This document shows, piece after piece, positions 1,614 through 18,786 of a stretch of DNA of 64,000 nucleotides. Position 1 is the first letter of the stretch. Each line of letters begins with the position of its first letter. The position numbers and the translations under genes are program-made. The stretch comes from Methanofollis formosanus (GTDB taxonomy: Archaea > Halobacteriota > Methanomicrobia > Methanomicrobiales > Methanofollaceae), in NCBI RefSeq assembly GCF_019633745.1, contig NZ_CP037968.1, forward strand, positions 1,990,789 through 2,054,788, given 5' to 3'. The notes beneath the pieces are model-generated. The model was not told the DNA's origin and made no database searches. It was given only the letters and a program-made list of their open reading frames with translations.

Positions 1614-1653
1614 CAACTCTCTTCTTTACTTTGTTACCGCTGAGGTGGTGTTG

Positions 1654-4600
1654 TTGAAACCTGTTCCTTCTCAGAGCATTCTGACTATTCTGATACTGTT
1701 GGTCCTGCTGGCCCCCGCCACGGCAGGAATACCTGACGGCACGGTCGTCCAGACGGACGAGAAAGTGCCTGTCATTGTCGTCCTCAAGGACCAACCGGAC
1801 CGCGGAACGAATTTCTTGACGATGAAAGCCGAGGCTGCCACCAGTCAGGCATCGGTGCTCTCGTCCATCAGTGTGATCGACGGTGCTGCTGCGCAGTCTG
1901 CGGAGCAGTTCTGGATCGTGAACGCGATCCGGATCGAGGCCGACCAGGCAGCGATTGAAAGGATCGCCCTCCTCCCGGGGGTCGACCATGTGGAGCCCGA
2001 CATGAGGGTGATGGTCAACGACCCCGTTAGCAAGGTGTCAAGCGTCGTCGATACCCAGTACACGAGAAGCGATGAGGCGTACCTCATGCCCTGGAACCTT
2101 GACTGGGTCGAGACACCCGGCGTCTGGTGCGCCGGCAACATGGGCGAAGGGGTCACGATCGCGGTCGTGGACACCGGTATCGACGGTTCTCACCCGGCCT
2201 TCGGCGGCCGTGTCAAGGCCTTCGCCGACTTTGTGAACGGGGAGAATGAATCTGCCTATGACGACGAAGGTCACGGTACCCATTGTGCCGGCACCGCCGC
2301 CGGCGGTGAGGTCGCGGTCTCTACAGATTATGAGGGCAATGTGGACGTCGTCCTCGGCGTCGCCCCGAAGGCCGACCTGATCGGCGCAAAGGTACTGGAC
2401 TTTGAGGGAAGCGGGTGGATCTCCGACATCCTCAAAGGCATCCAGTGGTCGGTCGAGAACGACGCCGATGTGGTCTCTCTCAGTGCGGGGTCATACTTCT
2501 GGAGAGCGGAGACAAAACCCGGCGAGGAAGACGAATCGTGTCCTATGATCGAACCAGGGGAGACACTGACTCTGACCCTCGAGGTCTCCTCGAATTATGC
2601 TGATGGCGATGACGTCTATGAACCCCAATTCGTCGTCGGCGGGTATGTGCTTGAGCAGATGGGATACTATAACTCTGCAACGCCATATACGCCCGCCCCT
2701 GCCAACCTGACGTTCTCCCTTACCGCACCCGGTGATGTCACGCCAGCGGGGGGGCTCATCGACTGGGACGGCTTTGACCATTCCCCCTACACGGTGATGT
2801 TCAAGGCGCCGTACACGAGCAACAGCGGGAACTGGAATGGTTTCTGGACGGTGAATATCACCAACAACGACAACGGAACGGTCTACCTGAAAAAGGTCGT
2901 GATCGCCGAGGCTTACGAGTCTGATGGGAACTCCGCTTTTGACAGAACTCTGAACAACCTTGTCGAGGGCGGTGTGGTGGCAGTCGTTGCGGCAGGCAAC
3001 GACGGGTACTATGGTACCGGCACGGTCAGCACGCCCGGCACGGCGCAGGACGTCATCACGGTCGGGGCCACCGACTACTGCATGGACTACCGGGCGAGTT
3101 TCAGTTCCATCGGGCCGGTGAACCGGGCAAACCCCTACGTCAAGCCTGATGTGATGGCGCCCGGCGTCGGCATTCTCTCCGCCTATCCGGGCGGACAGTA
3201 CGCCGTGATGGACGGCACTTCGATGGCCACCCCCTGTGTTGCCGGCACCGCCGCCCTCATGCTCGCCGGGAACGATACCCTGACCCCGGCAGAGGTCAAG
3301 CAAGCCCTGATGGACTCGGCCGTCCATATCAAAGAGGACGGCACGGCGATGGCCACCCCCGAACTGAACAATCTCTACGGCGCCGGCCGGATCAGTGCGT
3401 ACAGGGCGGTCGAAGCGACTGGCGGCCTGCACGGTGCGCCTGAAGTGTCTTCTTCTCTTACCGAACTCTTCGGTGGGCCGTATTACAACCAGGCCGACCC
3501 CGACACCGTGAAGATGCTCGCGGTCTGCTGGAATGCCACGGCATCGGCTCCGGTCGCCAACGAGACGGTGAATTTCTATCTTTCAGACTATAATTACGCG
3601 AATTGGGACATTATCCGCTCAGATTCGGCCGTAACGGATGCCGACGGCATGGCGACCGTCGCCTTCGACATCTCTACGCTCACCCCGGGCCGAAATTTCA
3701 AGGCCGAGGTGACGTGGGGAGACCATGTCCTGTCCGGTTTCTGGAGCAAGTACTACTCCCAGGACGGCGGCGGCACTTCCGTCACCCCTGCCCCGCTCTA
3801 TGAGGCTCAGTCCTTTATCGCCCCGCTGGACGGCGCCGTCACGATGCGTTACCCCCTCATCGACACCGACGGATCGGCCTACACCGAACCGGTCAGACTG
3901 GTGGTGAAGAACGCTACAATTACCTTCTATAATGAAACCCTGACCCCGGTCGACGGTGTCGTCACGGCCACCGTCGATTTTGCGGGCTTCGACATCGACC
4001 CGACCAACTATTGGTCCCGCCCCTACATCCTGATCAACGATCGGAACGCCGGGACAGTGTCGTTCTCGTATGAGATCTACTATGAGGCCTTCTCCTCTCC
4101 GAAACTGGCGATATGCCCGCCCGGCAGTTCAATCGACATCGCCCTGGAGGTCGCCGGCCACCATAGTGGTGGGGTCGTCACCTCGAAGGACTATCGGGTG
4201 GACGTGACCTCTTTCACCGAGACGGAGATCCTCTCCCTCCCGCCAGAACTCCTGGGTCAGTTCGCGACCGGAACACCTGTCGACGCGGCCGCTCTCCTTG
4301 AGGCGGCGGAGGGTCTGACCCCCGTAGAGTCGACCGGGACGGTCAGCGTCACCAACGGAATCGGCATCTATAACTTCACGATGCCGGCAGACTGCTCTGT
4401 AGCGGTCGTCAAATTTTTCGACCCATCTTACGAGGATTACGGCTATTATGACTCTTCCATGGTATCGGTCGTCTATGGTTCGATGTCGCCATGGACCCTT
4501 CACCGTGTGACCGCCCCGATGCCGGTTGCGCTGGATACTCTCGACAGCACCTTTATCGGCGTCTCAGACTACACATGGCCGTCGACCTGGAACCAGAGCG

Positions 4601-6969
4601 AGTACCGCTCGGTGCCCGGCAGTCAGGCCACCCTCCAGGCCGTTGTCTGTACGATAAACGGCACGACGTACGATGTGACCCCTGACGCCGGGAAGACGGT
4701 CAGGCTGTACACCGTCGACGGTGTCAGGACGAACACGACCGGCGCCGACGGCACCTGCACGTTCACGCTCGACGTGGCAGGAAAGAGTTTTGAAGACGTG
4801 ATCCTGCTCACCGAGGGCATCGATGTCGCTGCAGGGACGTTGAATTATATACCCTTCTCGATTTACTCATCCAGCCGCGTCCCTGCCGGCCTCCTCGGAT
4901 GTGACCCGGAAGCCGCTGCAGCGGTCGTGACCCTCAATCCAGCTTCGGAGACCCGGTGGATGGATGTCACGTATCAGGGCAGTGGTTCGTATCAGGTGGC
5001 GCTCCATTCCTATGGCCCGGACGACACCCCCATCGTTGAGCGCGGTATATTTGCGGCAAGCCCCTGGGTCGGGTGGCTTACAGAGGGGACCGAGTTTGCC
5101 GACACCTTCGCCTACACCGGTGACTGGACCAAGACCATCGCCCCGAGCGTGAACGGCACCTATGAGGGCCGCGCCTCGGTGGTGTGGGACGGACGTTTCG
5201 TCGGGTACATGGGCCGGATGTTCAGCGTACCCGAGGCCTCCGTCAACTACGAAGTGAAACCCGACGTTCTGGTCGGCACAACGGTTCCGGTGACCTTCAC
5301 CGTCACCGACAATGACGGCAACCCGGTCGGCGGAGCCAAGGTCGGGTTCTTCCTCGGCGGCGCTACCTTCTTCGATTACACCGGAAACGATGACGATGTC
5401 CGCCCGATCAACATTGATCACATGAACATGTGGTACCCCGACCCGTACTCCGAGGTGCTCACGGGCTATACCAAAGCGAACGGGCAGGTCACCCTGGACG
5501 TCCACGCGCCTTCCGCCGAGATGGCGCTCGAAAGGAGGGCGCTTGGGTTCTCTGACTATATATTCTACAAGACGGTCTGCTACAAGGGCGACGAGGTCAT
5601 CAAGCCGGACCTCTGGTATTATGACGGATGGTACTATGACGGCGCCTTCAAACTCACCGCCGAGGCCCTGCCCGACTTCGTCCCTGTCGTCAGCGCCCCC
5701 CATGTGGTGAAGTTGTACAGGAACGACTCGGTCGTGGTCAATGACCTTCGTCTTGAGATCAAGAACCAGGGCACCGTGGACTTCGTGTACGACGGGAGCA
5801 ACGCCGTTGTGGTGAAGGCCTCCGTCGGTTCCAAGGACCAGTCCACCACCTGTGATAAGAGTATCGCCGTCGGCGAAACAAAGACCGCCCTGTACACGAG
5901 TGTCCAGGCCTACGCCTCCGACTACGGCATCGACACCACTAACTACGACCTGCCGGTGGACGTGAACGTGAACGTCACGGTCAACCCGGAGCATGTGATC
6001 GACGAGGTCACCTACGCGAACAACAACCTGGTCTATCCGGTGCGGATCACCGCCCCCGACCTTGTGGTGGAGATCGGGGTCCCGTCGGTCGTGGTCGAGA
6101 GCACCGTCCCCACCCCGATCACCCTCGAGGTGACGAACAAAGGCGAAGTACCTTCGGTGGCCACGACGATGGTCTACTCGATCAGCGGCACGCCGGAGGA
6201 GACGATCAATGTTCCCGCCCTTCAACCAGGTCAGAGTTTCAATGTCTCGAGGAACCGGGTTCTTCTCAAGGGCACCTACACCCTGGCTCTCAAGGTGAAC
6301 CCGAACGGTGTCACTGACTATGAGACGACATTCGAGAACAACCGGGTCACCAGGACGGTGAACTGCTACCTCTACCCGACAACCTCCGTCGTGCTGCCCC
6401 AGGATCTTGTCCTGGTGCCGGGCACGACCTATGACCTGCCGATCGTGGTGAAGGGTGCAGAGAACCTCGCGGCCTACCAGATGACCTTCACCTTCGACCC
6501 GGCGGCCTTCACGGTCACGGATGTGACCTCGGGTGCGATTCCACTGACCGCAAAGAACATCGAGACAGGCACTGTCACATTCAATGGCGGGACCACAACC
6601 GGTGTCGGCGGTGACGTGACCGTGGCCACGGTCCACCTTTCAGCGACCGGTTCGAGTGGAACCGAATCGGCGCTCAACCTTGACGCCAAACTCTGGGACG
6701 CAAACGAGTATGCGATCCCGGTCGAGGTGACCCCCGGCAGCGCTGTCCTCCTCCTGTACGGCGATGCGAATGGCGACGGAACGGTCGATCAGGCCGACAC
6801 CCTCCGCGTCCTGAAAGAAGTCGTCGGTCTGACGGCGAGTCCGGCCTCCGGAACAACGGCCTTCCTCCAGACAGACGTCCATGAGAACCGTGCGATCGAG
6901 GTCGGCGACGCGATGTTCATCGCCCAGAAGAATGTGGGCCTCAGGGACCACTACTTCAGGATTGTGTGA
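1654..6969 (+). CDS. Secreted subtilisin-like (S8) protease with cohesin and dockerin modules
   Basis: About 1771 residues. A signal segment (SILTILILLVLLAPATAG) precedes an I9-like propeptide and an S8 catalytic domain with Asp173 (VVDTGIDG), His207 (GHGTHCAG), oxyanion Asn449 (AAGNDG) and Ser523 (GTSMATP). The His-to-Asn distance is large because a beta-rich insert sits inside the catalytic domain at about residues 285-425. Several beta-sandwich and CARDB-like domains follow. A cohesin-like domain lies at about 1575-1700, and a terminal dockerin at about 1702-1771 carries the calcium-loop pattern DANGDGTVDQAD plus a weaker second loop. No membrane anchor is present, so dockerin docking may hold it at the cell surface. 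The GAGGTG at 1642-1647 overlaps the upstream GTG codons and favours TTG at 1654; GTG 1645 is the alternative. It is the first gene of the operon. Confidence 0.9.
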   Translation: MKPVPSQSILTILILLVLLAPATAGIPDGTVVQTDEKVPVIVVLKDQPDRGTNFLTMKAEAATSQASVLSSISVIDGAAAQSAEQFWIVNAIRIEADQAAIERIALLPGVDHVEPDMRVMVNDPVSKVSSVVDTQYTRSDEAYLMPWNLDWVETPGVWCAGNMGEGVTIAVVDTGIDGSHPAFGGRVKAFADFVNGENESAYDDEGHGTHCAGTAAGGEVAVSTDYEGNVDVVLGVAPKADLIGAKVLDFEGSGWISDILKGIQWSVENDADVVSLSAGSYFWRAETKPGEEDESCPMIEPGETLTLTLEVSSNYADGDDVYEPQFVVGGYVLEQMGYYNSATPYTPAPANLTFSLTAPGDVTPAGGLIDWDGFDHSPYTVMFKAPYTSNSGNWNGFWTVNITNNDNGTVYLKKVVIAEAYESDGNSAFDRTLNNLVEGGVVAVVAAGNDGYYGTGTVSTPGTAQDVITVGATDYCMDYRASFSSIGPVNRANPYVKPDVMAPGVGILSAYPGGQYAVMDGTSMATPCVAGTAALMLAGNDTLTPAEVKQALMDSAVHIKEDGTAMATPELNNLYGAGRISAYRAVEATGGLHGAPEVSSSLTELFGGPYYNQADPDTVKMLAVCWNATASAPVANETVNFYLSDYNYANWDIIRSDSAVTDADGMATVAFDISTLTPGRNFKAEVTWGDHVLSGFWSKYYSQDGGGTSVTPAPLYEAQSFIAPLDGAVTMRYPLIDTDGSAYTEPVRLVVKNATITFYNETLTPVDGVVTATVDFAGFDIDPTNYWSRPYILINDRNAGTVSFSYEIYYEAFSSPKLAICPPGSSIDIALEVAGHHSGGVVTSKDYRVDVTSFTETEILSLPPELLGQFATGTPVDAAALLEAAEGLTPVESTGTVSVTNGIGIYNFTMPADCSVAVVKFFDPSYEDYGYYDSSMVSVVYGSMSPWTLHRVTAPMPVALDTLDSTFIGVSDYTWPSTWNQSEYRSVPGSQATLQAVVCTINGTTYDVTPDAGKTVRLYTVDGVRTNTTGADGTCTFTLDVAGKSFEDVILLTEGIDVAAGTLNYIPFSIYSSSRVPAGLLGCDPEAAAAVVTLNPASETRWMDVTYQGSGSYQVALHSYGPDDTPIVERGIFAASPWVGWLTEGTEFADTFAYTGDWTKTIAPSVNGTYEGRASVVWDGRFVGYMGRMFSVPEASVNYEVKPDVLVGTTVPVTFTVTDNDGNPVGGAKVGFFLGGATFFDYTGNDDDVRPINIDHMNMWYPDPYSEVLTGYTKANGQVTLDVHAPSAEMALERRALGFSDYIFYKTVCYKGDEVIKPDLWYYDGWYYDGAFKLTAEALPDFVPVVSAPHVVKLYRNDSVVVNDLRLEIKNQGTVDFVYDGSNAVVVKASVGSKDQSTTCDKSIAVGETKTALYTSVQAYASDYGIDTTNYDLPVDVNVNVTVNPEHVIDEVTYANNNLVYPVRITAPDLVVEIGVPSVVVESTVPTPITLEVTNKGEVPSVATTMVYSISGTPEETINVPALQPGQSFNVSRNRVLLKGTYTLALKVNPNGVTDYETTFENNRVTRTVNCYLYPTTSVVLPQDLVLVPGTTYDLPIVVKGAENLAAYQMTFTFDPAAFTVTDVTSGAIPLTAKNIETGTVTFNGGTTTGVGGDVTVATVHLSATGSSGTESALNLDAKLWDANEYAIPVEVTPGSAVLLLYGDANGDGTVDQADTLRVLKEVVGLTASPASGTTAFLQTDVHENRAIEVGDAMFIAQKNVGLRDHYFRIV

Positions 6970-6980
6970 GGTGAATGCAG

Positions 6981-9900
6981 ATGAATGTGAAAAATCTCCT
7001 GGTGGTGGGGCTCATCCTCACCGCCCTTCTGGTATCAGCGGCATCCGCGGCTGACCTTGTGGTCATGCCCCAGAGTTCTACCAGTGCAATCGGTGAGGTC
7101 ACCGATGTGACACTGCGGGTTGAGAATGTGAACCATCTCGGTGGGTTCGATATCGACCTCTGCTGGGATCCCTCGGTGGTCGTGCTTGACCCCGAACCGG
7201 GCAGCGTGACCATCGGTCCGCTCTTCTCCGGCGATGTGAACGACACCGCGTATGCAAGCCAGAATGGGCGTGTCCGGGTGGCGGCGGTGAACGCCAGTCT
7301 TGAAGGTGTCTCGGGCACCGCCGACCTCTTCACCGTCCGCCTGAAGACCGTCGACGACACCGGGAAGTCGACCCCTGTCGCGGCGGTCGTGAACAACTAT
7401 GGGTTCCTCAACTCGACAAGCGGCGACGACATCCCGGTGAACCCGGTCACGAACGCCACGATCACCTCGCAGCGGGTCAACCGCATCGTCTCGGAAGTCG
7501 GGGTTGCGAGTTCGAGCGTCTCGGTAAATTCCAGTACCTACGGGGTCTTTACGGTGGCCAACCAGCGCGGTGTCCCGACCTCGGAACTGACGATCAACAC
7601 CACCATCTATGCCCCCGACGGCTCGGTCTTCAACACCGCCGAACGGAAGGGGATTATCCTGAAGGCATACGAGCAGAATGTGCAGCGGACCGAATGGACG
7701 CCGACGCAGACCGGCACGTATGTCCTGAATGTGACGGTGACCTCCGACACCGATCTCCCGGTCGTCGGAACCACCACGGCGGAGCGCTCGGTGACCGTGC
7801 GCGAGTTCAGCCTTGAGTTCCATCCGCATGTCTACGGCTACTCCCGTCCCCAGGTGGACACATGGTTCTGGATGGTCTGGTATGTCAAACCAAGTGAGAG
7901 CGGGAAGGTGCATCTGAACCTGAGTGTGCCGGAGAGTATCGAGGTCATGGGCGGGACCGAATGTGATCCGTGGATGAACGGCGGTGCCCTGAACTATGTC
8001 TCGTTCCGTATGCGTGCCACCGAGATCGGTACCTTTACCAGGGACCGGTTCAACCTGACGGCGTCGGCGCACGGGAAGACGGCCTCGAAAGCGAGCACTC
8101 ACGATATTTACGTCTGGGTGCCTTCGCTGGAGGTCTCGTCGGTGGATTCGGTGAACGTTGACGCCGTTGGTGATTTCGAGATGTCCTACAACACCCTCCA
8201 CACCAACAGCACCTATGACAACCAGACCGTTATCACCGTGCAGTCGGGCGCCCGCGGCCGGACGCTCGCCGGTCTTGGCTATCTTGTCGGCTATCCGTAT
8301 GGGTGTGTTGAGCAGACGACGTCGAGAATGCTTGCTTCACTGAACGTGAAGAACTACTATCTTGAACGCCCGGACAGGCCGGCCGATTTCCAGATCATCC
8401 GCAATGATGCGAACACCTCGGTGAGCAACGGTGTGGTCAAACTGGTGCGCGGGGGCCAAGTCGGTCAGCATGAAGACGGCGGCTGGAGCCTCTGGGGCTG
8501 CGGCGAATCCGAGTCCTCTTCCAGTTCGTACGCCGCCTACACGCTGGCGAGGGTGAACGAGTCGGGCGAAGACCTGAACCGCCTGCTGGACGGCAATGTC
8601 AGCACCGGTCCCACGGTCGGCGACGACACGGTCAACTTCGAGAAAGCGGTCGAGTGGTTCCACGGGTACCCGGACGATCCGTCGAGCAATACATGGACGT
8701 GGAGCGCTGGTGTCTGCCACGCATGGACTCCGACCTCGAACACCGGGTTCGTGATGCTGATCCATGACATGATCCGTGATCAGGGCACGGTCGCAGAGCC
8801 CTATGCAACCTACATGACGGAGAACATGCAGAACGCCACGCGGTACTTCGTTGAAACTCAGGCCGGTGACGGTTCCTGGGGCGGCAACCACGACACGGCG
8901 ATGGCGACTGCGCTTGGGCTCTGGGGCCTGGAGGCCTATGGGACTCCCTCGGCCGATGTGACGCAGAGCCAGATCGACGACGCAAAGGCAAACGCGGTTG
9001 CCTGGCTTCTCGAAAACCAGGACGTCGACGGCCACTGGAAGGTCGGTCGCTTCTATGGATACAGCAGTAGTGGCCGGAACTCCGAGAGTACCGCCTATGC
9101 GGTCCTCGCCCTCAACGCCACCGGCATCCCCGCGGAGAACAAGACGATCCAGAATGGCGTGAACTGGCTTGTTGAGCAGTACGAATCCGGCGGGAAGTGG
9201 GGTTACACCTGGGCAACGCAGGCGGCGATCGACGCCCTGATCCACTGTCAGCCCATCGAGATCAGTACGGGCGAGCTCTCGATCTCCATCGACGGGAACG
9301 ACATCTGCACGCTGACGGTCGACGACGCCAACCCGAAGGTGGAGTACATCCTCACCGCCGATCAGATGGCGACGGTGATGGCGGACGGTGACCTGAAACG
9401 CGAGATCTCCGATTACTCGAAGGTCATGCAGCACGCCGTCACGGTGACCAGGAACAACGGCGACGGTATGATCCTGGTCTCGATTGAGAACACGCAGCGC
9501 GCGCCGGTGAACGAGATCGACGATCCCATCGAGGACACCGGCACCATCCTGTCGACCGGCGGCATCATTCCCGACACCGGATCGCCGGATGTGGTCAGGT
9601 TCTCAGAGAACATGGACATCCTCGGCGACGCCGCACCCGGGGATCTCTTCGACACGGTGACCCTCGCCTCCGACCCGTCCCCGCTTGTTGCGAACGAGTC
9701 CGGAAAGGTGACAATCCAGGTAGTCTCCGGTGTTCAGGACGTCTTCTCGCCGATGATCGAGGTGCCGATCGAGGGCTTCACCTTTGCAAACGGCACCATC
9801 GAGGAGAATGGAATAGGAGTATCCTACGAGGTGCTGAACGGTTCGGTCAACACCGACTCGACCTCGATCTTCATCGAGCCCACCAAATGGCTCAAAGATA

Positions 9901-10808
9901 CGACCTACACCTATGTATTCGACGCCAAACCCACTCATGTGGGAGCCCTCAACTTCAACCTCAGGTTCAAGGCGCTCAATGACGAGAGCAATGTCACGCT
10001 TGTCGAGAAGGATCTGGCCGTCACCGGCCGCGGCGATGTGGCGGTGAAGGTCACCGACGAGAACGACAGCCCGGTCGAGGCGACGATCGTCCTCGACGGT
10101 TTGAGCCAGACGGCGACGAGTCACACCTTCGAAGGTCTGCTTGCGGGCACCTATCCGCTCTCGGTCTCGAAGGTGGGATACACCACGGTGAACACGACGG
10201 TGGGTGTCCAGGCGAACGGCGAGACCAATGTCACGGTGATGATGCCGACAGACCTCTCGACTCCGCGGTTGATTCTCTCCCACGGCAGCGGTATGCTTGC
10301 CGGTGTCTCGGAGGTTCCGGGCAGACTCTCCGCGGGCTTTGCGGAGAACGCCACCTACAATGCGACGGTCGTCGGGAACGGTGGAGAGATCGGACTTGCG
10401 CTGGAGTTCCCGCAGCGGTTTATGCTGAATGACCCGGTTGTGCGTTTGAACGGCGGCGGGGTACTTGACCCGAGCGAGTATGAGATCAGGGAGGGGACGT
10501 TTGAGTATGACGATTATAATGATAAGTATTCATCAAGTAATGCTACAATTATAATCTACAGCGCCCCGATCGGATTAAATACCATTGAGATTGGTCTGAC
10601 CGGGACAAGGCTCGGTGATGCCAATGGAGATGGGAAACTCACGCTGTACGATCCCATTCGGATTCTCGCGTGCTACAATCAGGACGAAGGTGGATATGCG
10701 GAATGGATCAGTGCGTATGATTATATGGACACCTTTGAACGAGAAAAACACAAAATAACTCTATTTGATGCAATAACAGCATTAAGTGACTACAATGAAC
10801 AGGGGTGA
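6981..10808 (+). CDS. Alpha-2-macroglobulin-like thioester protein with cohesin-like and dockerin modules
   Basis: About 1275 residues with a signal peptide (LLVVGLILTALLVSAASA). A cohesin-like domain spans roughly 27-155, followed by beta-sandwich domains. The region around residue 438 reads YPYGCVEQTTSR; Cys442 and Gln445 match the internal-thioester CxEQ motif of alpha-2-macroglobulins. After it come alpha-toroid-like repeats (GSWGGNHDTAMATALGLWGL; SESTAYAVLALNATG; ATQAAIDAL). Then follow further beta domains, a PEGA/carboxypeptidase-regulatory-like domain (about 1015-1080) and a C-terminal dockerin (1211-1275, first loop DANGDGKLTLYD). No membrane anchor. ATG 6981 is preferred over ATG 6975 because the GAGGTG at 6968-6973 abuts the latter. 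It starts 11 bases after the protease stop. The last 300 bases are visibly AT-richer than the rest. Confidence 0.85.
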   Translation: MNVKNLLVVGLILTALLVSAASAADLVVMPQSSTSAIGEVTDVTLRVENVNHLGGFDIDLCWDPSVVVLDPEPGSVTIGPLFSGDVNDTAYASQNGRVRVAAVNASLEGVSGTADLFTVRLKTVDDTGKSTPVAAVVNNYGFLNSTSGDDIPVNPVTNATITSQRVNRIVSEVGVASSSVSVNSSTYGVFTVANQRGVPTSELTINTTIYAPDGSVFNTAERKGIILKAYEQNVQRTEWTPTQTGTYVLNVTVTSDTDLPVVGTTTAERSVTVREFSLEFHPHVYGYSRPQVDTWFWMVWYVKPSESGKVHLNLSVPESIEVMGGTECDPWMNGGALNYVSFRMRATEIGTFTRDRFNLTASAHGKTASKASTHDIYVWVPSLEVSSVDSVNVDAVGDFEMSYNTLHTNSTYDNQTVITVQSGARGRTLAGLGYLVGYPYGCVEQTTSRMLASLNVKNYYLERPDRPADFQIIRNDANTSVSNGVVKLVRGGQVGQHEDGGWSLWGCGESESSSSSYAAYTLARVNESGEDLNRLLDGNVSTGPTVGDDTVNFEKAVEWFHGYPDDPSSNTWTWSAGVCHAWTPTSNTGFVMLIHDMIRDQGTVAEPYATYMTENMQNATRYFVETQAGDGSWGGNHDTAMATALGLWGLEAYGTPSADVTQSQIDDAKANAVAWLLENQDVDGHWKVGRFYGYSSSGRNSESTAYAVLALNATGIPAENKTIQNGVNWLVEQYESGGKWGYTWATQAAIDALIHCQPIEISTGELSISIDGNDICTLTVDDANPKVEYILTADQMATVMADGDLKREISDYSKVMQHAVTVTRNNGDGMILVSIENTQRAPVNEIDDPIEDTGTILSTGGIIPDTGSPDVVRFSENMDILGDAAPGDLFDTVTLASDPSPLVANESGKVTIQVVSGVQDVFSPMIEVPIEGFTFANGTIEENGIGVSYEVLNGSVNTDSTSIFIEPTKWLKDTTYTYVFDAKPTHVGALNFNLRFKALNDESNVTLVEKDLAVTGRGDVAVKVTDENDSPVEATIVLDGLSQTATSHTFEGLLAGTYPLSVSKVGYTTVNTTVGVQANGETNVTVMMPTDLSTPRLILSHGSGMLAGVSEVPGRLSAGFAENATYNATVVGNGGEIGLALEFPQRFMLNDPVVRLNGGGVLDPSEYEIREGTFEYDDYNDKYSSSNATIIIYSAPIGLNTIEIGLTGTRLGDANGDGKLTLYDPIRILACYNQDEGGYAEWISAYDYMDTFEREKHKITLFDAITALSDYNEQG

Positions 10809-11553
10809 TATCATCAAATCCCATTATATTTTAGTAGTGACCCTCGTGTTTCTCTTCAGTGTGCTGGTATCCAGCGCGAGTGCAGCCGAGGTTGTTCTGG
10901 ATGGAAACGAGATTGTGATACGTGGAGTGGATGACTCCGTTGGTCTTGGAGGTTTCTCGATTGTTCTATCCTATGGTTCAGACGTCAGTATCAGTTCTGT
11001 CACGGGGCTTTCAGGTTTTTTAGTGGTGAATGATACTGGGATGAGAAAAATTTCCGGCATCTATGGCGGGACCGAGATCAAGACGGGTGATATCCCTGTT
11101 GCCAAGGTATCCAGATCAGAGGCAGGGGTTGTCACTATATCTGTTCGGGAACTCATAAACCGCGAAGGAGATGCTATCCCCTTTTCGAACCCGGTATGGG
11201 GTGGAGACGATGTAACGTCACCAACACCTTCCAGGACAGAAGTTACGACCCCAGAACAGACAACGTCGTCCACCTCATCCTCAGGCGGAGAGGGGACATC
11301 AACGTCTGAAACTGGTCGCTCTAAAGAAGGAATTTCCGCTCAAGAAACGTCTGTTTCTGTAGAACACACGTCGGTGAGTGAAGTGCCATTTTCTCCTACC
11401 CCTGATGGAACTACAGCGCAGATCACTGAAAAACCATCGACGACGACAACGCCAACGCCGAAACAGCAGGCTTCTCTCTCGTTTGGAGGTTCATTTGTGG
11501 CATTTGGACTTTTGGTCGTATTAAAGCGAAGGATTAATAATTCAGGTAAATAA
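10795..11553 (+). CDS. Small membrane-anchored cohesin-like surface protein
   Basis: About 252 residues: a signal peptide (LVVTLVFLFSVLVSSASAA), a single beta-rich domain of about 110 residues whose start (EVVLDGNEIVIRGVDDSVGL, then GGFSIVLSY) resembles the cohesin-like module of the preceding protein (VENVNHLGGFDIDL), a long Ser/Thr-rich and probably glycosylated stalk (about 145-225), and one C-terminal helix (GSFVAFGLLVVLKRRI). It therefore looks like a one-cohesin surface anchor that could hold the two dockerin proteins encoded upstream. The start overlaps the upstream stop; GTG 10786 is an alternative. Base composition is clearly AT-richer than the neighbours. The cohesin assignment rests on pattern and context. 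Confidence 0.7.
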   Translation: MNRGDIIKSHYILVVTLVFLFSVLVSSASAAEVVLDGNEIVIRGVDDSVGLGGFSIVLSYGSDVSISSVTGLSGFLVVNDTGMRKISGIYGGTEIKTGDIPVAKVSRSEAGVVTISVRELINREGDAIPFSNPVWGGDDVTSPTPSRTEVTTPEQTTSSTSSSGGEGTSTSETGRSKEGISAQETSVSVEHTSVSEVPFSPTPDGTTAQITEKPSTTTTPTPKQQASLSFGGSFVAFGLLVVLKRRINNSGK

Positions 11554-11570
11554 TTAGGATGTGATAGTTC

Positions 11571-14500
11571 ATGGAAAAAAAGCGTGTTGTTGCAATTACG
11601 TTTGTGCTCTTATGCCTATGCGTAGGTTTTGCTGTTGCAGCTCCAGCAGGATCTTTGAAGGCAGGAGATGCACAAAACGTCCCTGATGGGGCAAATGAGT
11701 CTGTTGAATTTTGTTTGTCCCATAATTTTACAGATCCTGGTGTTAGTGGAGTATCATTCAGGGTATTCTATGATCAGGATGTTACCGAGCCACTGGAATC
11801 AAAAGAGACCTCCTCGGAGTATGTGGGTCTGCCTGATTTCAAGTATTATTCTGGATATATAAAAGTCTCCTTAACCGCTAAAGATTATGCTGGCAAAGGA
11901 TATCCACAAGATTGCTGGCTTGTGAGGATACCGATGAAAGCATTGAAGAACGACGGCAGTTCTTCAGAGATCGGTCTGGTAATGCGGGAGGTAACTGCTG
12001 TTGGTGGTAGTGATATTACCGATTCGTTTACTGTCGTCAACGGCACCTTCTCCACCCTCGACGAGGTCGCTCCCAACATCACCTTTGCCACCCCCCAGAC
12101 GGTCTCCTCCACCTTTAACGTCGCCGGTACGATCGCCGATGTCGGCGGCATGGGCACGGCGACTGCTTATCTGGTCAATGCCACGGAAAACGTGACTGTG
12201 GAACTGCCTCTCACCCAGACCGCCCCCGACACCTGGACCTTCGATAGCGGGGTCACCTGGCCGGTCTACGAACCGGTGACCATCAAGGTCTCGGCCACCG
12301 ACGCCGCCGGCAACTCCGACATGGAGTCGAAGATGGTCGAGGTATCTGAGATTGGATTTTCGAAAGAAGAACCGAGCGGCTACATCAACGCGCAACCTGA
12401 CAAGATCAGGGTTTTTACCACGCAGATGAACAAGTCCACGGTCACGCTGACTCTCACCAGTCCTGAATCCGTGGATATCCCCCTCAATGTAACTTTCGAC
12501 GGCAACTATGCACAGAACACTTCGGTTCCCCCACTCGTTGACGGTACCTGGGGGGTGACCGCCCGCGGAGAGGACAACACCGAAATCGGAGGAGTTTACA
12601 TCCTTGAATGGTCCTTCGCTCTCGACCGGGAACCGCCGGTGATTAACTCCTTCAGCATCACCGACACCGACGGTGACGGCTATCTTGAGGCCGGCGAAGT
12701 GCTGAACTTCAACTGGGATGTCTCCGGTGCGGGCGCCGTCCACCTCATGGACAACAAGACTCATGAGGTCTTCTTCGTCTCGACCGACCTCACCGGCACC
12801 AACAGCACGACCATCGACGTCGGCAACCGCAATATGGTCTTTGCCGCATTCGACGAGGCAGGAAACGCTGCATACGTGCCCTTCCACCTGTATTACAACT
12901 ACATGGCGTGGATCAACTCCACCAGGATCGGCACGGTCTCGGGCATCGACACGAACCTCTCTGCGGTGCGCCAGCTCGACCTGACCGCGCAGGGCTCGGT
13001 TGTCTTCTATAATGCCCGCGAGGCTCCTTGCGTTCCGATCGGCACGGTCAAAAGGTCGGTGGCAGGGGTCGGCCAGGTGACGAACGACACCTATGTCAAG
13101 GTCGACAACACTGCCAACGCCACCTACTCCGGCGCAGACACCTATGACTGTGTCTGGACCTACAACCCGTGCAGCGATCTCGACTTCCTTGTGGGGGCAC
13201 CCTGCATCGATGCCGCAAATCTCGTGATCCTGGAGGCAAACGAAAGTTACATCGCCCAGCTAGCCCATGAAGGCAAGGCCGCACGCGACACGATCGATTA
13301 CAACAACCTCATCCAGAAGTGTGCCTGGATATTCATCGACGGCGGGTACACGAAGATCAAGATCAACCCCGACGGAACCTTCACCCAGCCTGTCGCCGAG
13401 GGCAAATCCCTGAAGGTCGCTGCCTCGGGCAATATCGTCGATACCTTCCGTATTGCCGATAACCAGGTCAACCTGACCGCCGGGTACCACCTGAGTGCGC
13501 AGGTCCACAACGGCACCACGCTCCCGGCCATCACGCTCCCGGTCGGCGACTATGCTCTTGCCACCATCAGCATGGACGGTGACAGGATCGGTGTTATCAC
13601 CGGGATGCCCTTCACCGTCATGGAGGCTCCCGACGTAGGGACGGTGCCCGCCTCGGTGGTTCGTGGCACGTCCTTCACCGCCGCCTTCCCATCAGAATGC
13701 GATTGCATCGGTGCGGTGGTTATCAGAAATGCTACCTGGGACGGACAGGTTGAGGTCGACGCCTGCACCCTCGGTGTTGACTCGCTCTGTGTGAACCTGA
13801 CATATGACGGTATCCCGGCTACGAAGAAACTCTACGGCAACGTCTATGCCAGTCCCGATGCCGCCGAGTACGCTTACGCCAGAAACGCAAGTTCGGTCTC
13901 GGTCCCGACCGACGGTCTCCTCCCTGGAACCTATGATGTCCACCTGGCCGCCGTCTGTGAGGAGAACGGCACGGTCAAATCCTACGGCTACCACCAGATC
14001 GTAGTGCAGAGCCCGTCCGCCCCGGTCGCTGCCTTCAATGCGGACCCGATGAGCGGGTTCGCGCCGCTCACCGTGACCTTCACCGACGCCTCCACCGGCC
14101 AGATCAACACCTGGTACTGGGAGTTCGGGGACGGCACCACCTGCTGGAATCAGAACCCGTCCCCCCATGTCTACAACGCCCCGGGCACCTATCAGGTGAA
14201 CCTGACCGTGTGGGGTTACGGCGGCAACAGCAAGGTTTCAAAGGAGATCGTCGTCATATCCCCGACGCCGGTCGCCAACTTTACCGCAAACCCGACGAGC
14301 GGGAATGCACCGCTCACCGTGACCTTCACCGACGCTTCCACCGGGAACATCAACACCTGGGCATGGGAGTTCGGTGACGGTACCACCTGCGGTAATCAGA
14401 ACCCGTCCCCTCACATCTACAACGCCCCGGGTACCTATCAGGTGAACCTGACGGTGACCGGCCCGACCGGCAGCGATACGAAATCCACCGAGATCACCGT

Positions 14501-15668
14501 GACCGACGTGCCTCCTGCACCGGTCGCGAACTTCATCGCAAGCCCGACGAGCGGGTACGCACCGCTCACCGTGACCCTCACCGACAGATCTACCGGGAAC
14601 ATCACCTCCTGGTTCTGGGACTTCGGTGACGGCACGAACTCGACAAAACAGAATGTCACAACCCATACCTTCGGTTCGGTCGGAACCTATCTGGTGAACC
14701 TGACCGTGACCGGTCCTGGCGGCAGTGCCTACAAAACCGCGACCATCACTGTCAAGAAGAAGTCGTCCGGCGGCGGTGGCGGCGGTGGCGGCGGGAGCCA
14801 CACCGTTCCGCCAGTCGAACCGACCGGCCCCTCAGTCCCCGGCCCCAGTCTCTGGTCCACCTTCTCCCTGAGCGGTGCGTCCTTCTCCACCACTGACGGC
14901 GTCCAGACCTTCTCGATCGACCTCGATAAGGCGGAACGCGTCAAGGTCGAAGGCGACACCGTCACCTTCAGTAAGAACGGCCTGGTCTTTGAAATCAAGG
15001 GTTCTGACCTCAAAAAGTCAGGGAACACCCTCACCGGCACCGTCAACTCGTTGAAGATCAAGTCCGGGCTGCTCGAAGGCTCTGAAAACGTGTCTGCACG
15101 GTTCACGGCAGAGTTCCCGTACTTCCCGGTGAACGCCACGATCGGCGCTGACCTGATCGAGAACGTGAGCGAGAACGTCGCTTCGGCATACAGCCTTGCC
15201 CTCCTTGACGAGGGGCTCGACGTCTCCGAGATCGCTTACACCATGAAGGTCACCAAGAAGGGCATCGAGAAGTGCGGCCCTGCGACGATCACGATGACGG
15301 TCTCGCCCGAGTGGGTAACGGCCCGCGGCGGCGTGGACAAGATTCGGATCCTCAGAATGGCAGACGACGGCACCACCCAGGTGCTCGAGACGGTCTTCAA
15401 GGGCTATGACACCGATGGTCAGTACGTCTTCGAGGCAGTCTCCCCGGACGGCCTCTCTGAGATCGGACTGGTCGCGGTGACCGAGTCGACCGCGGTCACG
15501 GTAAAGCCCACTGATGTGGGTGTCGGTGCGGAGACTCCCACGACGATCCCGGCCGGCGGCGACGAGACGCCCGCTGAGGGAGGTCTTCCGGTCGGCTTGA
15601 TTGCCGTCGTTCTGGTGGCTATCGTCGCTATCGCGGCGGTCGGTTACTACTTCCAGAAGAAAGAATAA
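11571..15668 (+). CDS. Giant PKD-repeat surface protein with C-terminal membrane anchor
   Basis: 1365 residues: a signal peptide (VVAITFVLLCLCVGFAVAA), an N-terminal cohesin-like domain (about 25-160), Ig-like beta domains, and three PKD domains (about 817-895, 899-980, 983-1061) with the repeated motif WEFGDGTT or WDFGDGTN. A nine-glycine linker follows, then a PGF-pre-PGF-type domain (about 1092-1310) and a C-terminal helix (GLIAVVLVAIVAIAAVGYYF) ending in QKKE. PKD and PGF-pre-PGF domains are typical of methanogen envelope proteins. As last gene of the operon it may serve as a large cell-surface scaffold or adhesin. The first 465 bases are AT-rich, then composition switches sharply to GC-rich near 12035, suggesting module exchange. 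An S-layer role is possible but not shown. Confidence 0.85.
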   Translation: MEKKRVVAITFVLLCLCVGFAVAAPAGSLKAGDAQNVPDGANESVEFCLSHNFTDPGVSGVSFRVFYDQDVTEPLESKETSSEYVGLPDFKYYSGYIKVSLTAKDYAGKGYPQDCWLVRIPMKALKNDGSSSEIGLVMREVTAVGGSDITDSFTVVNGTFSTLDEVAPNITFATPQTVSSTFNVAGTIADVGGMGTATAYLVNATENVTVELPLTQTAPDTWTFDSGVTWPVYEPVTIKVSATDAAGNSDMESKMVEVSEIGFSKEEPSGYINAQPDKIRVFTTQMNKSTVTLTLTSPESVDIPLNVTFDGNYAQNTSVPPLVDGTWGVTARGEDNTEIGGVYILEWSFALDREPPVINSFSITDTDGDGYLEAGEVLNFNWDVSGAGAVHLMDNKTHEVFFVSTDLTGTNSTTIDVGNRNMVFAAFDEAGNAAYVPFHLYYNYMAWINSTRIGTVSGIDTNLSAVRQLDLTAQGSVVFYNAREAPCVPIGTVKRSVAGVGQVTNDTYVKVDNTANATYSGADTYDCVWTYNPCSDLDFLVGAPCIDAANLVILEANESYIAQLAHEGKAARDTIDYNNLIQKCAWIFIDGGYTKIKINPDGTFTQPVAEGKSLKVAASGNIVDTFRIADNQVNLTAGYHLSAQVHNGTTLPAITLPVGDYALATISMDGDRIGVITGMPFTVMEAPDVGTVPASVVRGTSFTAAFPSECDCIGAVVIRNATWDGQVEVDACTLGVDSLCVNLTYDGIPATKKLYGNVYASPDAAEYAYARNASSVSVPTDGLLPGTYDVHLAAVCEENGTVKSYGYHQIVVQSPSAPVAAFNADPMSGFAPLTVTFTDASTGQINTWYWEFGDGTTCWNQNPSPHVYNAPGTYQVNLTVWGYGGNSKVSKEIVVISPTPVANFTANPTSGNAPLTVTFTDASTGNINTWAWEFGDGTTCGNQNPSPHIYNAPGTYQVNLTVTGPTGSDTKSTEITVTDVPPAPVANFIASPTSGYAPLTVTLTDRSTGNITSWFWDFGDGTNSTKQNVTTHTFGSVGTYLVNLTVTGPGGSAYKTATITVKKKSSGGGGGGGGGSHTVPPVEPTGPSVPGPSLWSTFSLSGASFSTTDGVQTFSIDLDKAERVKVEGDTVTFSKNGLVFEIKGSDLKKSGNTLTGTVNSLKIKSGLLEGSENVSARFTAEFPYFPVNATIGADLIENVSENVASAYSLALLDEGLDVSEIAYTMKVTKKGIEKCGPATITMTVSPEWVTARGGVDKIRILRMADDGTTQVLETVFKGYDTDGQYVFEAVSPDGLSEIGLVAVTESTAVTVKPTDVGVGAETPTTIPAGGDETPAEGGLPVGLIAVVLVAIVAIAAVGYYFQKKE

Positions 15669-16953: not shown

Positions 16954-17625
16954 ATGAGCACCGAGGTCATCAGGCTGGAACACGTGCGGAAAGTCTACCC
17001 ACGGCTCGCCGGAGACGTCGTCGCCCTCGACGACCTCTCCCTTACGATCGAGGAAGGGGATTTCGTGGCCGTGATGGGTTCGTCGGGCTCGGGCAAGTCC
17101 ACGCTCATGAACCAGATCGGATGCCTCGACGTCCCGACCTCGGGCACCCTCTGGATCGCCGGCAAGAACGTCGGTGAGATGAGCGATTTCGAACTGACCC
17201 AGCTGCGCCGCGACACCATCGGGTTCGTTTTCCAGAAGTTCAACCTCATCCCGGTGCTGACGGCACGGGAAAACGTGGAGATCCCCCTTATCCTCAAAGA
17301 AGGACATCGGGATACGCAGGGCCGGGCCGAGACCCTCCTCAGGACCGTCGGTCTCGACGGCGAGGTGATCACCCACACCCCGGCCGAACTCTCAGGCGGG
17401 CAACAGCAACGGGTGGCCATCGCGAGGGCCCTGGTCAACGATCCCAGGATCCTCCTCTGCGACGAACCGACCGGCAACCTGGACTCGAAGACGAGCACGC
17501 AGATCATGGACCTCCTGGCCGCCCTCCACCGCGAGGGACGGACGGTGGTGATGGTCACCCACGACCAGGCCACGGCCGAGTACGCCGACCGGATCGTGAC
17601 CATCTCGGACGGGCGGGTGGTCTGA
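16954..17625 (+). CDS. ABC transporter ATP-binding protein, MacB/LolD type
   Basis: 223 residues. Walker A GSSGSGKST near 42-50, Q-loop FVFQKFN, signature LSGGQQQR, Walker [14 protein letters not shown] and switch His in VTHD are all intact. The DEPTGNLDS sequence and short length place it with MacB/LolD/FtsE-type ATPases, which power permeases that act on the envelope rather than classical import. A GGAGG at 16941-16945 sits eight bases before ATG 16954. The permease gene begins immediately after its stop. Substrate is unknown. Confidence 0.93.
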   Translation: MSTEVIRLEHVRKVYPRLAGDVVALDDLSLTIEEGDFVAVMGSSGSGKSTLMNQIGCLDVPTSGTLWIAGKNVGEMSDFELTQLRRDTIGFVFQKFNLIPVLTARENVEIPLILKEGHRDTQGRAETLLRTVGLDGEVITHTPAELSGGQQQRVAIARALVNDPRILLCDEPTGNLDSKTSTQIMDLLAALHREGRTVVMVTHDQATAEYADRIVTISDGRVV

Positions 17626-18786
17626 GTGGCTTCCTCAGGGATCCTCTTTGATATGGCAAAACGGAACGTGAGGCTCCACTTGGTCAGGTCGCTCCTCGCG
17701 GCAATCGGGATCGTCATCGGGGTGCTGGCCATCACGGCGATGGGGATGATGGGCGCCGCCCTCCAGCAGGCGGTCACCTCCGACCTCTCTGCGGGAGCCG
17801 ACAGCCTGATGATCTATCCGAAGATCGCGGCGGGTGATGGCGGCGGGATCACCGAGCGGCAACTGCGGGATATCAAGATGGCTGCCGGCCCGAACCAGGT
17901 GGTCCCGATCATGAGCGGGACAGACCGGATCGCCGTCGGTTCGGAGACCGGATATGCCCAGATCTATGGGCTTGACCCCGGCGACCTGGACGCCGTGACC
18001 GAGGTGGAGACCGGGGTCGCCTTCAGAGGGAGCGCGGGCGCTCTTGTCGGCCCGACGCTTGCCCGTGAGTATGACATGCGGGTCGGGAGCCGGCTCACGC
18101 TGGGCAAAGAGGGTGAGGAGCGGACGGTGCGGGTCGTAGGGATCCTGAAGGAGTCCGGCTTCTCAGGGACGATGATGACCGACAACGCTGTCCTGGTCCC
18201 GGAACGGTGGTACACCGCTGCTTATGGGGACGACGGCTACGATATGGTCCAGGTGGCGGTCAGTGACCTCGGCGAGATCGATCGGGTCAAGGAACGGGTC
18301 GAGGATAGAATGAACCGCCGGGAGGAGACGGTGACGATCTGGGACTCCCGGGCCTTCCTGGAGATGGTTCAGGAAGCGCTGGGGAGCATTTCGCTCTTCG
18401 TGATGGCAATAGGTGGGATCTCTCTGGTCGTGGCGGCGGTGAGCATCTTCAATGTGATGTTGATGTCGGTCAACGAACGGATCAAGGAGATCGGGATCCT
18501 CAGAAGTCTGGGTGCGCAGAAACACGAGATCACCCTGCTTTTCCTGTACGAGGCCGTGATCCTCGGGCTGATCGGTGCCGGTGCCGGCGCCCTCCTCAGT
18601 CTTGGAGGCGGCTATCTCCTCATACTCCTGATGGTACAGGACACGGCCTACTTCTTCACGGCCCAGACCCTCCTCTATGTTCCCTTCGGGATGGGGGTCG
18701 GCGTCGTGATCTGTCTGCTCTCCGGTGTCTACCCGGCGCTGCGGGCGGCCGCGCTCAATCCGGTCGATGCGCTTTCCGCCGAGTGA
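17626..18786 (+). CDS. ABC transporter permease, MacB/FtsX type
   Basis: 386 residues with the MacB architecture: an N-terminal helix (LVRSLLAAIGIVIGVLAITAM), a large extracytoplasmic MacB-PCD-like domain (about 45-255), and three C-terminal helices of the FtsX domain. The cytoplasmic motif NVMLMSVNERIKEIGILRSL joins helices 2 and 3. The protein ends in YPALRAAALNPVDALSAE, typical of the family. It starts with GTG directly after the ATPase stop codon; an internal ATG at 17653 is less likely. It is paralogous to the three permeases at 56328-60574. Confidence 0.92.
   Translation: MASSGILFDMAKRNVRLHLVRSLLAAIGIVIGVLAITAMGMMGAALQQAVTSDLSAGADSLMIYPKIAAGDGGGITERQLRDIKMAAGPNQVVPIMSGTDRIAVGSETGYAQIYGLDPGDLDAVTEVETGVAFRGSAGALVGPTLAREYDMRVGSRLTLGKEGEERTVRVVGILKESGFSGTMMTDNAVLVPERWYTAAYGDDGYDMVQVAVSDLGEIDRVKERVEDRMNRREETVTIWDSRAFLEMVQEALGSISLFVMAIGGISLVVAAVSIFNVMLMSVNERIKEIGILRSLGAQKHEITLLFLYEAVILGLIGAGAGALLSLGGGYLLILLMVQDTAYFFTAQTLLYVPFGMGVGVVICLLSGVYPALRAAALNPVDALSAE

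Follow-up and report, generated by a model that had tools for sequence, protein, structure and literature searches.

The stretch analysed here, hereafter the window, comprises 64,000 nucleotides of the 2.97-Mb single-contig genome of Methanofollis formosanus (contig NZ_CP037968.1, positions 1,990,789 to 2,054,788 of the forward strand). Four open reading frames lie back to back on its + strand (1645-6969, 6975-10808, 10786-11553 and 11571-15668); 5 bases separate the first two and 17 the last two, and the middle pair overlaps. They encode a secreted subtilase (gene 1), a secreted protein placed by its predicted structure in the alpha-2-macroglobulin (A2M)/complement superfamily (gene 2) and two membrane-anchored proteins (genes 3 and 4). 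All four products carry cohesin-fold domains, and those of genes 1 and 2 end in dockerins of paired F-hand repeats. The A2M dockerin, gene 3 and the gene 4 cohesin are replaced between close relatives as one block. We propose, with a probability of about 0.6, that the four products assemble at the cell surface into a non-cellulosomal cohesin-dockerin relay, in which the subtilase would dock on the A2M-like protein and the latter on the anchored pair. The features of the locus are as follows.

1645-6969, + strand: gene 1, secreted S8 subtilase of 1774 amino acids (aa) (Pfam, motifs, hydropathy, orthologues in 16 genomes)
2095-3504, + strand: S8 protease domain, interrupted by roughly 140 inserted residues (two Pfam S8 stretches, 178.5 bits)
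6367-6744, + strand: gene 1 cohesin, residues 1575-1700 (Pfam Cohesin, 28.3 bits, above the cut-off; profile match to PDB 2xdh, 3e-5)
6745-6966, + strand: gene 1 dockerin, conserved asymmetric type also present on other secreted proteins (profile match to solved dockerins, 1.2e-4; genome survey)
6975-10808, + strand: gene 2, secreted protein of 1277 aa, predicted A2M/complement-superfamily member and proposed adaptor scaffoldin (Pfam, phmmer, AlphaFold2/Foldseek)
7050-7469, + strand: cohesin at the N-terminus of gene 2, residues 26-165, proposed to receive dockerins of the gene 1 type (family profile to 3l8q, 1.6e-5, and 2xdh, 8.4e-4; covariation)
8301-8315, + strand: gene 2 thioester motif GCVEQ, residues 443-447 (invariance in orthologues; TED domain)
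10260-10610, + strand: gene 2 putative beta domain preceding the dockerin, in an X-module-like position (covariation with the dockerin, r 0.69)
10611-10805, + strand: gene 2 dockerin, symmetric fast-changing type (family profile to 4uyp, 3.3e-7; repeat symmetry test)
10786-11553, + strand: gene 3, small membrane-anchored cohesin protein of 255 aa (AlphaFold2 model with Foldseek; hydropathy)
10885-11211, + strand: gene 3 predicted minimal cohesin domain (AlphaFold2/Foldseek; weak profile-profile matches to the gene 1 and gene 2 cohesins)
11467-11526, + strand: gene 3 C-terminal membrane segment (hydropathy)
11571-15668, + strand: gene 4, large membrane-anchored protein of 1365 aa with a cohesin, immunoglobulin (Ig)-like domains, three PKD domains and a C-terminal membrane helix (Pfam, profile, hydropathy)
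11637-12068, + strand: gene 4 N-terminal cohesin (profile matches to 2jh2/2ozn, 8e-4; hhalign to the gene 2 cohesin, 94.9%)
15567-15659, + strand: gene 4 C-terminal membrane helix (maximum hydropathy 3.01)
10481-12040, no strand: exchangeable block holding the end of gene 2 with its dockerin, the whole of gene 3 and the gene 4 cohesin (identity profile, discordant trees)

Gene 1, whose longest reading frame starts at 1645 and not at 1654, is composed of a signal peptide, an I9-like propeptide, the S8 domain, an Ig-like region, a CARDB domain, the cohesin and the dockerin. The catalytic Asp/His/Ser motifs of the protease are intact (VVDTG, GHGTHCAG and GTSMATP), and Pfam also reported CARDB and, at 17.3 bits, Dockerin_1. 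Gene 2 runs from the cohesin through Ig- or macroglobulin (MG)-like domains, the thioester domain, PEGA and the beta domain to the dockerin. Hydropathy analysis yielded a signal peptide only in genes 1 and 2 and an additional C-terminal membrane segment in genes 3 and 4. Family profiles built from 16 orthologues and searched against PDB were required for the module assignments, as Pfam and phmmer applied to the window proteins alone overlook the gene 3 cohesin and the gene 2 dockerin. The top PDB match of the gene 1 cohesin profile was the Archaeoglobus fulgidus cohesin 2xdh; the gene 2 cohesin matched the PDB cohesins 3l8q (ScaB), 5m0y and 2bm3 in phmmer; and the N-terminal domain of gene 4 matched the Clostridium perfringens cohesins 2jh2, 2o4e and 2ozn (8e-4 to 1.2e-3). 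The window copy of the gene 2 dockerin is degenerate and falls below Pfam detection, and it was recognised through the orthologue profile, with a profile-profile match to the gene 1 dockerin of 98.7%.

The gene 3 profile gave no sequence match to cohesins in PDB; its matches to designed ankyrins had marginal E-values and were taken as chance. Its AlphaFold2 model was of high confidence (predicted local distance difference test score, pLDDT, 92.9; predicted template modelling score, pTM, 0.85), and Foldseek returned 2xdh as the top PDB match (probability 1.00) and more cohesins at 0.99-1.00. The domain is thus predicted to adopt a cohesin fold, the smallest and least certain of the four. For gene 2, Pfam detected TED_complement (37.8 bits) and PEGA, and Cys444, Glu446 and Gln447 of the thioester motif are invariant in the 16 orthologues. 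The model of residues 26-1212 was only moderate (pLDDT 68.8, pTM 0.41), with a low-confidence loop at about residues 849-890, and all 50 of the 50 PDB matches listed by Foldseek were A2M, complement or TEP proteins (E down to 2e-31), which places gene 2, as modelled, in the A2M/complement (TEP) superfamily with an intact thioester motif.

The first-pass annotation, made from the sequence alone, had described cohesin-like beta domains in four consecutive genes, dockerins at the ends of an unanchored subtilase and A2M-like protein, and C-terminal helices anchoring the following two. This architecture stands: profile searches matched solved cohesins for genes 1, 2 and 4 and solved dockerins for genes 1 and 2, the gene 3 domain was recovered by structure prediction, the calcium-loop motifs DANGDGTVDQAD and DANGDGKLTLYD are present, and the membrane segments were found by hydropathy.

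Conservation was surveyed in 199 genomes of the order Methanomicrobiales. A full-length gene 2 orthologue was found in 17 of them, from Methanofollis, Methanoculleus, Methanogenium and relatives, and genes 1-4 keep the same order and strand in all 17 (the window genome and 16 others), so the four-gene set is not a chance arrangement. Gene 3 and the gene 2 cohesin were strongly matched in exactly these genomes and no others, and gene 4 in these and three more. A wider search of the Methanoculleus family gave no additional orthologues, and a scan of named genomes returned the same assemblies together with thioester-only relatives in bacteria and other archaea. Eight further genomes hold a longer, distant A2M gene. 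In the four such loci inspected (L202-L205), it is flanked by anchored proteins resembling those of genes 3 and 4 and by a dockerin protein; the latter is an S8 subtilase in three of the loci (L203, L204 and L205) and a propeller protein in L202. Cohesin, TED and Dockerin all exceed the Pfam cut-offs within one protein in L202 and L203, and the A2M protein of this diverged subtype in L203 has two Pfam cohesin stretches.

Gene 4-type cohesins also occur in other settings. A fragment on contig C551 of genome G147 carries two in tandem in one frame, and six genomes of another family, f5 (G068, G116, G169, G170, G183 and G192), have four or five matches each, mostly in shorter frames, with no gene 2 match in those six genomes.

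The region linking genes 2, 3 and 4 is exchanged as a unit. Nucleotide identity to the nearest relative (L042) is about 0.85-0.92 up to position 10420, 0.32-0.60 at 10481-12040 and 0.80-0.92 from 12041, which delimits a sharply bounded block of about 1.5 kb whose downstream end coincides with the edge of the gene 4 cohesin domain. Protein identity to the same relative is 15, 35 and 23% inside the block versus 67-86% in most flanking segments. The same block differs between the Methanoculleus loci L047 and L048, where it is 46-64% identical and lies between tracts of 100% identity, and gene 2 holds a further mosaic tract when L047 is compared with L051; both of the latter are metagenome assemblies, in which a chimaera is possible, and the Methanofollis case comes from two single-contig genomes (G000 and G015). 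Trees of the gene 2 body, the gene 2 cohesin and the gene 1 dockerin unite Methanofollis; in those of the gene 2 dockerin, gene 3 and the gene 4 cohesin, L042, L043 and L045 group close to L046, apart from the window, and the position of L045 is uncertain in the gene 3 tree. Approximately unbiased (AU) p values were 0.005 for gene 3, 0.016 for gene 4 and 0.29 for the short gene 2 dockerin. The G+C content of the gene 2 end is below that of the gene 2 body in 17 of 17 genomes, and that of gene 3 is lower in most.

The two dockerins differ in their mode of change. At calcium-loop positions 9-11 the repeats of the gene 2 dockerin are identical to each other in 39 of 48 comparisons, where cross-pairing would give 10.4 (p <= 5e-5), and these positions vary between species; the gene 1 dockerin, unlike it, is asymmetric and conserved. 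Symmetric type I dockerins bind in two orientations through recognition residues duplicated in both repeats (PMC12484212), so repeat symmetry combined with change between species is the expected trace of selection on a two-way binding face.

Partners were sought by covariation: for 15 genomes, the inter-genome distances of each module were corrected by regression for the background distance of the genes concerned, and eight pairs were tested. The gene 2 dockerin covaried with the gene 3 cohesin (r 0.75, p 0.0005) and the gene 4 cohesin (r 0.62, p 0.0005), and with neither the gene 1 nor the gene 2 cohesin. The gene 1 dockerin covaried with the gene 2 cohesin (r 0.48, p 0.0095 uncorrected), and not with the gene 3 cohesin. 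The picture was stable when subsets of genomes were dropped, except for the pair of gene 2 dockerin and gene 3. These correlations make it more likely that the subtilase dockerin binds the A2M cohesin and the A2M dockerin the anchored cohesins. The docking of both secreted proteins on the two anchored ones, as proposed in the first-pass annotation, is therefore retained for the A2M-like protein and replaced for the subtilase, whose dockerin follows gene 2 instead.

The gene 1 dockerin is also carried by other proteins. Clients were defined as matches to it at E < 1e-20, and those of more than 200 aa were collected (n = 40). These are secreted proteins, nearly all from cluster-bearing genomes; PKD domains occur in 38 of the 40, mostly directly ahead of the dockerin, and the N-terminal parts are highly varied, including S8 proteases (six), NHL, SBBP or Kelch propellers and beta-helices. 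At least one extra client was found in 14 of the 17 cluster genomes and in 5 of the 182 others (Fisher 7e-15, kinship ignored). The contrast holds within Methanofollis (4/5 cluster genomes versus 2/7 others) and within the Methanoculleus genus g4 (5/5 versus 3/30). The window genome has two clients, one with three cohesin-like repeats, two PKD domains and the dockerin (L010) and one at L013. Because the tag is shared by about 40 secreted proteins, proteases and propellers among them, the system is probably a multi-client scaffold, more than a protease machine. The surface proteolysis machine first suggested for the locus accordingly keeps its subtilase with intact motifs and proves too narrow as a description, as the gene 1 orthologue in G031 lacks the S8 domain and retains CARDB, cohesin and dockerin.

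Client dockerin genes stand in tandem, two per locus, at L168, L190, L195 and L169, which suggests client islands. A second dockerin type (DPDGDGxxEDVNGDG...FDxNGNGxIDxxDV) follows cohesin-like domains in the window genome, including those of another subtilase, and perhaps belongs to a separate pairing system; its loci are:

L012, 8331-10511, - strand: second dockerin type
L012, 11238-13760, - strand: second dockerin type
L011, 3670-9039: second dockerin type

In the proposed relay, secreted clients, namely the gene 1 subtilase and others with the same dockerin, would bind the one cohesin that gene 2 carries at its N-terminus. Gene 2 would act as an adaptor scaffoldin, with its own C-terminal dockerin held by the cohesins that genes 3 and 4 anchor in the membrane. 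The modules, anchors, thioester motif, gene order, client tag and block replacement that support this arrangement are read from sequence or model. The beta domain of gene 2 may serve in the manner of the X-module of cellulosomal X-dockerin pairs. The lower lock, formed by the A2M dockerin and the anchored cohesins, would be diversified and swapped as a block, and the anchors of each lineage would thereby take their own adaptor. At the cell surface, the protease would thereby sit next to a trap domain that bears a thioester. From knowledge of the A2M/complement family, this placement suggests that a proteolytic trigger (the docked subtilase or an attacking protease) would expose the thioester and that a nearby protein would be captured covalently; thioester chemistry and a defensive role are expected on the same family knowledge.

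Several observations weigh against the relay. The second calcium loop of the window's gene 2 dockerin is non-canonical, and Pfam gave no match to a bait-region domain (A2M_BRD) or to a full MG1-MG6 set in gene 2 of either subtype. The p value of the gene 1 dockerin and gene 2 cohesin fails correction for eight pairs, so that this pairing is suggestive, and the gene 1 dockerin also shows a weak trend with the gene 4 cohesin (r 0.18-0.37). Among the 11 genomes with the larger type, the correlation of the gene 2 dockerin with gene 3 drops to 0.23 (p 0.10), that with gene 4 staying at 0.61. The proposed partners are neighbours on the DNA and the replaced block is contiguous, so shared recombination could yield the covariation; this confound is tempered by two neighbouring pairs without effect, the gene 1 cohesin with its own dockerin (r 0.12) and the gene 4 cohesin with the adjoining segment (r 0.15). 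The gene 1 cohesin adjoins its own dockerin, which makes self-binding possible. Finally, the Methanofollis genome G003 has a gene 4 orthologue and one client dockerin (loci C1:1444285 and C1:1678125), and lacks genes 1-3.

Among other explanations, the assembly might be a feeding machine, with the subtilase and the other clients breaking down protein from the surroundings to be taken up, and with the A2M-like protein as a substrate holder or a purely structural scaffold. The six S8 protease clients fit this, and the propeller clients could bind substrates; the invariant thioester and the block-wise replacement of the lock suit conflict better, and Methanomicrobiales are not, to our knowledge, known to live on protein. 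We consider feeding unlikely, and defence, which may be roughly twice as probable, is favoured on three grounds: the thioester, the replacement of the block and the genes already known to accompany archaeal A2M homologues. Archaeal A2M homologues with a CxEQ motif, including those of Methanomicrobia, occur near endoproteases, Ig proteins and peptide transporters (PMC8416519). In the PADLOC search for anti-phage defence systems, gene 1 matched through its subtilase domain only and genes 2-4 had no match. A bolder version, which we put forward as a long shot, is an archaeal complement-like system with the docked subtilase as the convertase that sets off a tethered thioester protein, which would covalently tag hostile proteins, viruses or neighbouring cells, and with the swapped lock as an allotype protecting the armament of each lineage against borrowing or hijack by others.

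Docking could alternatively be parallel, with the subtilase and the A2M-like protein occupying anchored cohesins of genes 3 and 4 next to each other. This scheme accounts for dockerins on both secreted proteins and cohesins on both anchored ones, for the weak trend between the gene 1 dockerin and gene 4, and for G003, where gene 4 and a client dockerin persist without gene 2. Against it, the two dockerins evolve oppositely, that of gene 1 being conserved and that of gene 2 changing with the anchors, and the N-terminal cohesin of gene 2 is left with no role. Since the gene 1 dockerin covaries with the gene 2 cohesin and not with gene 3, the relay is the likelier of the two, and we judge parallel docking improbable.

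Self-pairing, in which the cohesin of gene 1 holds the adjacent dockerin or the two join gene 1 copies together and the modules are structural C-terminal caps, would suit the position of the dockerin directly behind the cohesin, the joint occurrence of both in other proteins here and the protease-less gene 1 of one genome; it is very doubtful given their lack of covariation (p 0.28) and the lack of a detectable cohesin in most of the roughly 40 proteins with the same dockerin. It is equally hard to credit that the modules are generic Ig-like adhesion domains and EF-hand-like tails without mutual binding, the block swap being antigenic or virus-receptor variation, for although hypervariable archaeal surface Ig proteins swapped by recombination are known (VARTIG, PMC8416519) and the gene 3 cohesin is recognised by model only, with other Ig-like folds also in its Foldseek list, the profiles match solved cohesins and dockerins, not general Ig or EF-hand proteins, and the agreement between the two repeats of the gene 2 dockerin at its presumed recognition residues is the trace expected of selection on a binding face.

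Beyond the four genes, a divergent gene (269-1477, - strand, 402 aa) with a signal peptide and a C-terminal membrane segment adjoins the cluster, and its relatives flank the cluster in most other genomes. It had nothing above the cut-off in Pfam or NCBIfam, and its product is possibly a fifth component of the system. Closely downstream, 16954-18786 (+ strand) encodes a MacB/LolCDE-like ABC exporter with ATPase and permease, and the ATPase gene lies downstream of the cluster in L043 and L044 too. Scans for promoters and terminators gave little above chance level, and the RNA family search gave no match.

Cohesins and dockerins are already known from archaea, and proteins with a dockerin and several cohesins have been described in anaerobic methanotrophic archaea (ANME; PMC9012536). 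The systems of A. fulgidus, whose cohesin 2xdh is, among solved structures, the nearest to those of genes 1 and 3, and of ANME resemble the present one in being archaeal and non-cellulolytic; no conserved operon, partner map or function was given for them, whereas here a four-gene relay of a protease, a thioester protein and two anchors is proposed. The purpose of archaeal cohesins and dockerins has been open since they were first noticed, and the operon offers a specific proposal for which modules pair, a client tag whose occurrence in genomes can be counted, and swapped locks that form a natural series for specificity tests. The archaeal A2M homologues of PMC8416519 share the thioester domain and the CxEQ motif; that paper mentions no dockerin and reports no C-terminal shuffling, whereas the C-terminal dockerin is exactly the shuffled part here. 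Bacterial A2M (ECAM/YfhM, Salmonella) and metazoan complement/TEP proteins, which the gene 2 model matches throughout the PDB list and which share the thioester motif, differ in that gene 2 has a cohesin replacing the N-terminal MG domains, no detected bait-region domain and a C-terminal dockerin. The VARTIG modules of Thermococcales (PMC8416519) likewise form a hypervariable, recombining C-terminus on a large secreted Ig protein followed by membrane-associated genes, but the proteins are different ones, with no cohesin or dockerin reported there.

The closest parallel is the cellulosome, especially the ScaB adaptor of A. cellulolyticus (3l8q, 4uyp), in which a client dockerin-cohesin pair is followed by a second type to the surface anchor; symmetric two-repeat dockerins and lineage-specific pairs are also shared. 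The present system differs in an adaptor with a single cohesin in the window, an A2M-like thioester body and an anchor lock swapped as a block. Neither a carbohydrate-binding module nor a glycoside hydrolase occurs among the Pfam matches of genes 1-4 or among the 25 families listed for the 40 clients. The system would work like a small cellulosome yet is not one, because it has no carbohydrate module, no glycoside hydrolase and one cohesin on the window's adaptor. In the literature searched, which leaves most subscription papers outside its scope, no paper was found that joins 'dockerin' and 'macroglobulin'. New are the adaptor, an A2M-like protein that carries both a cohesin and a dockerin, the conserved operon of the proposed relay, the client tag and the block-wise exchange of a docking pair. 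Cellulosome-style docking is joined here to the A2M/complement superfamily. The relay, if true, would make available a compact archaeal model for covalent capture by surface-tethered proteins, as well as further orthogonal cohesin-dockerin pairs.

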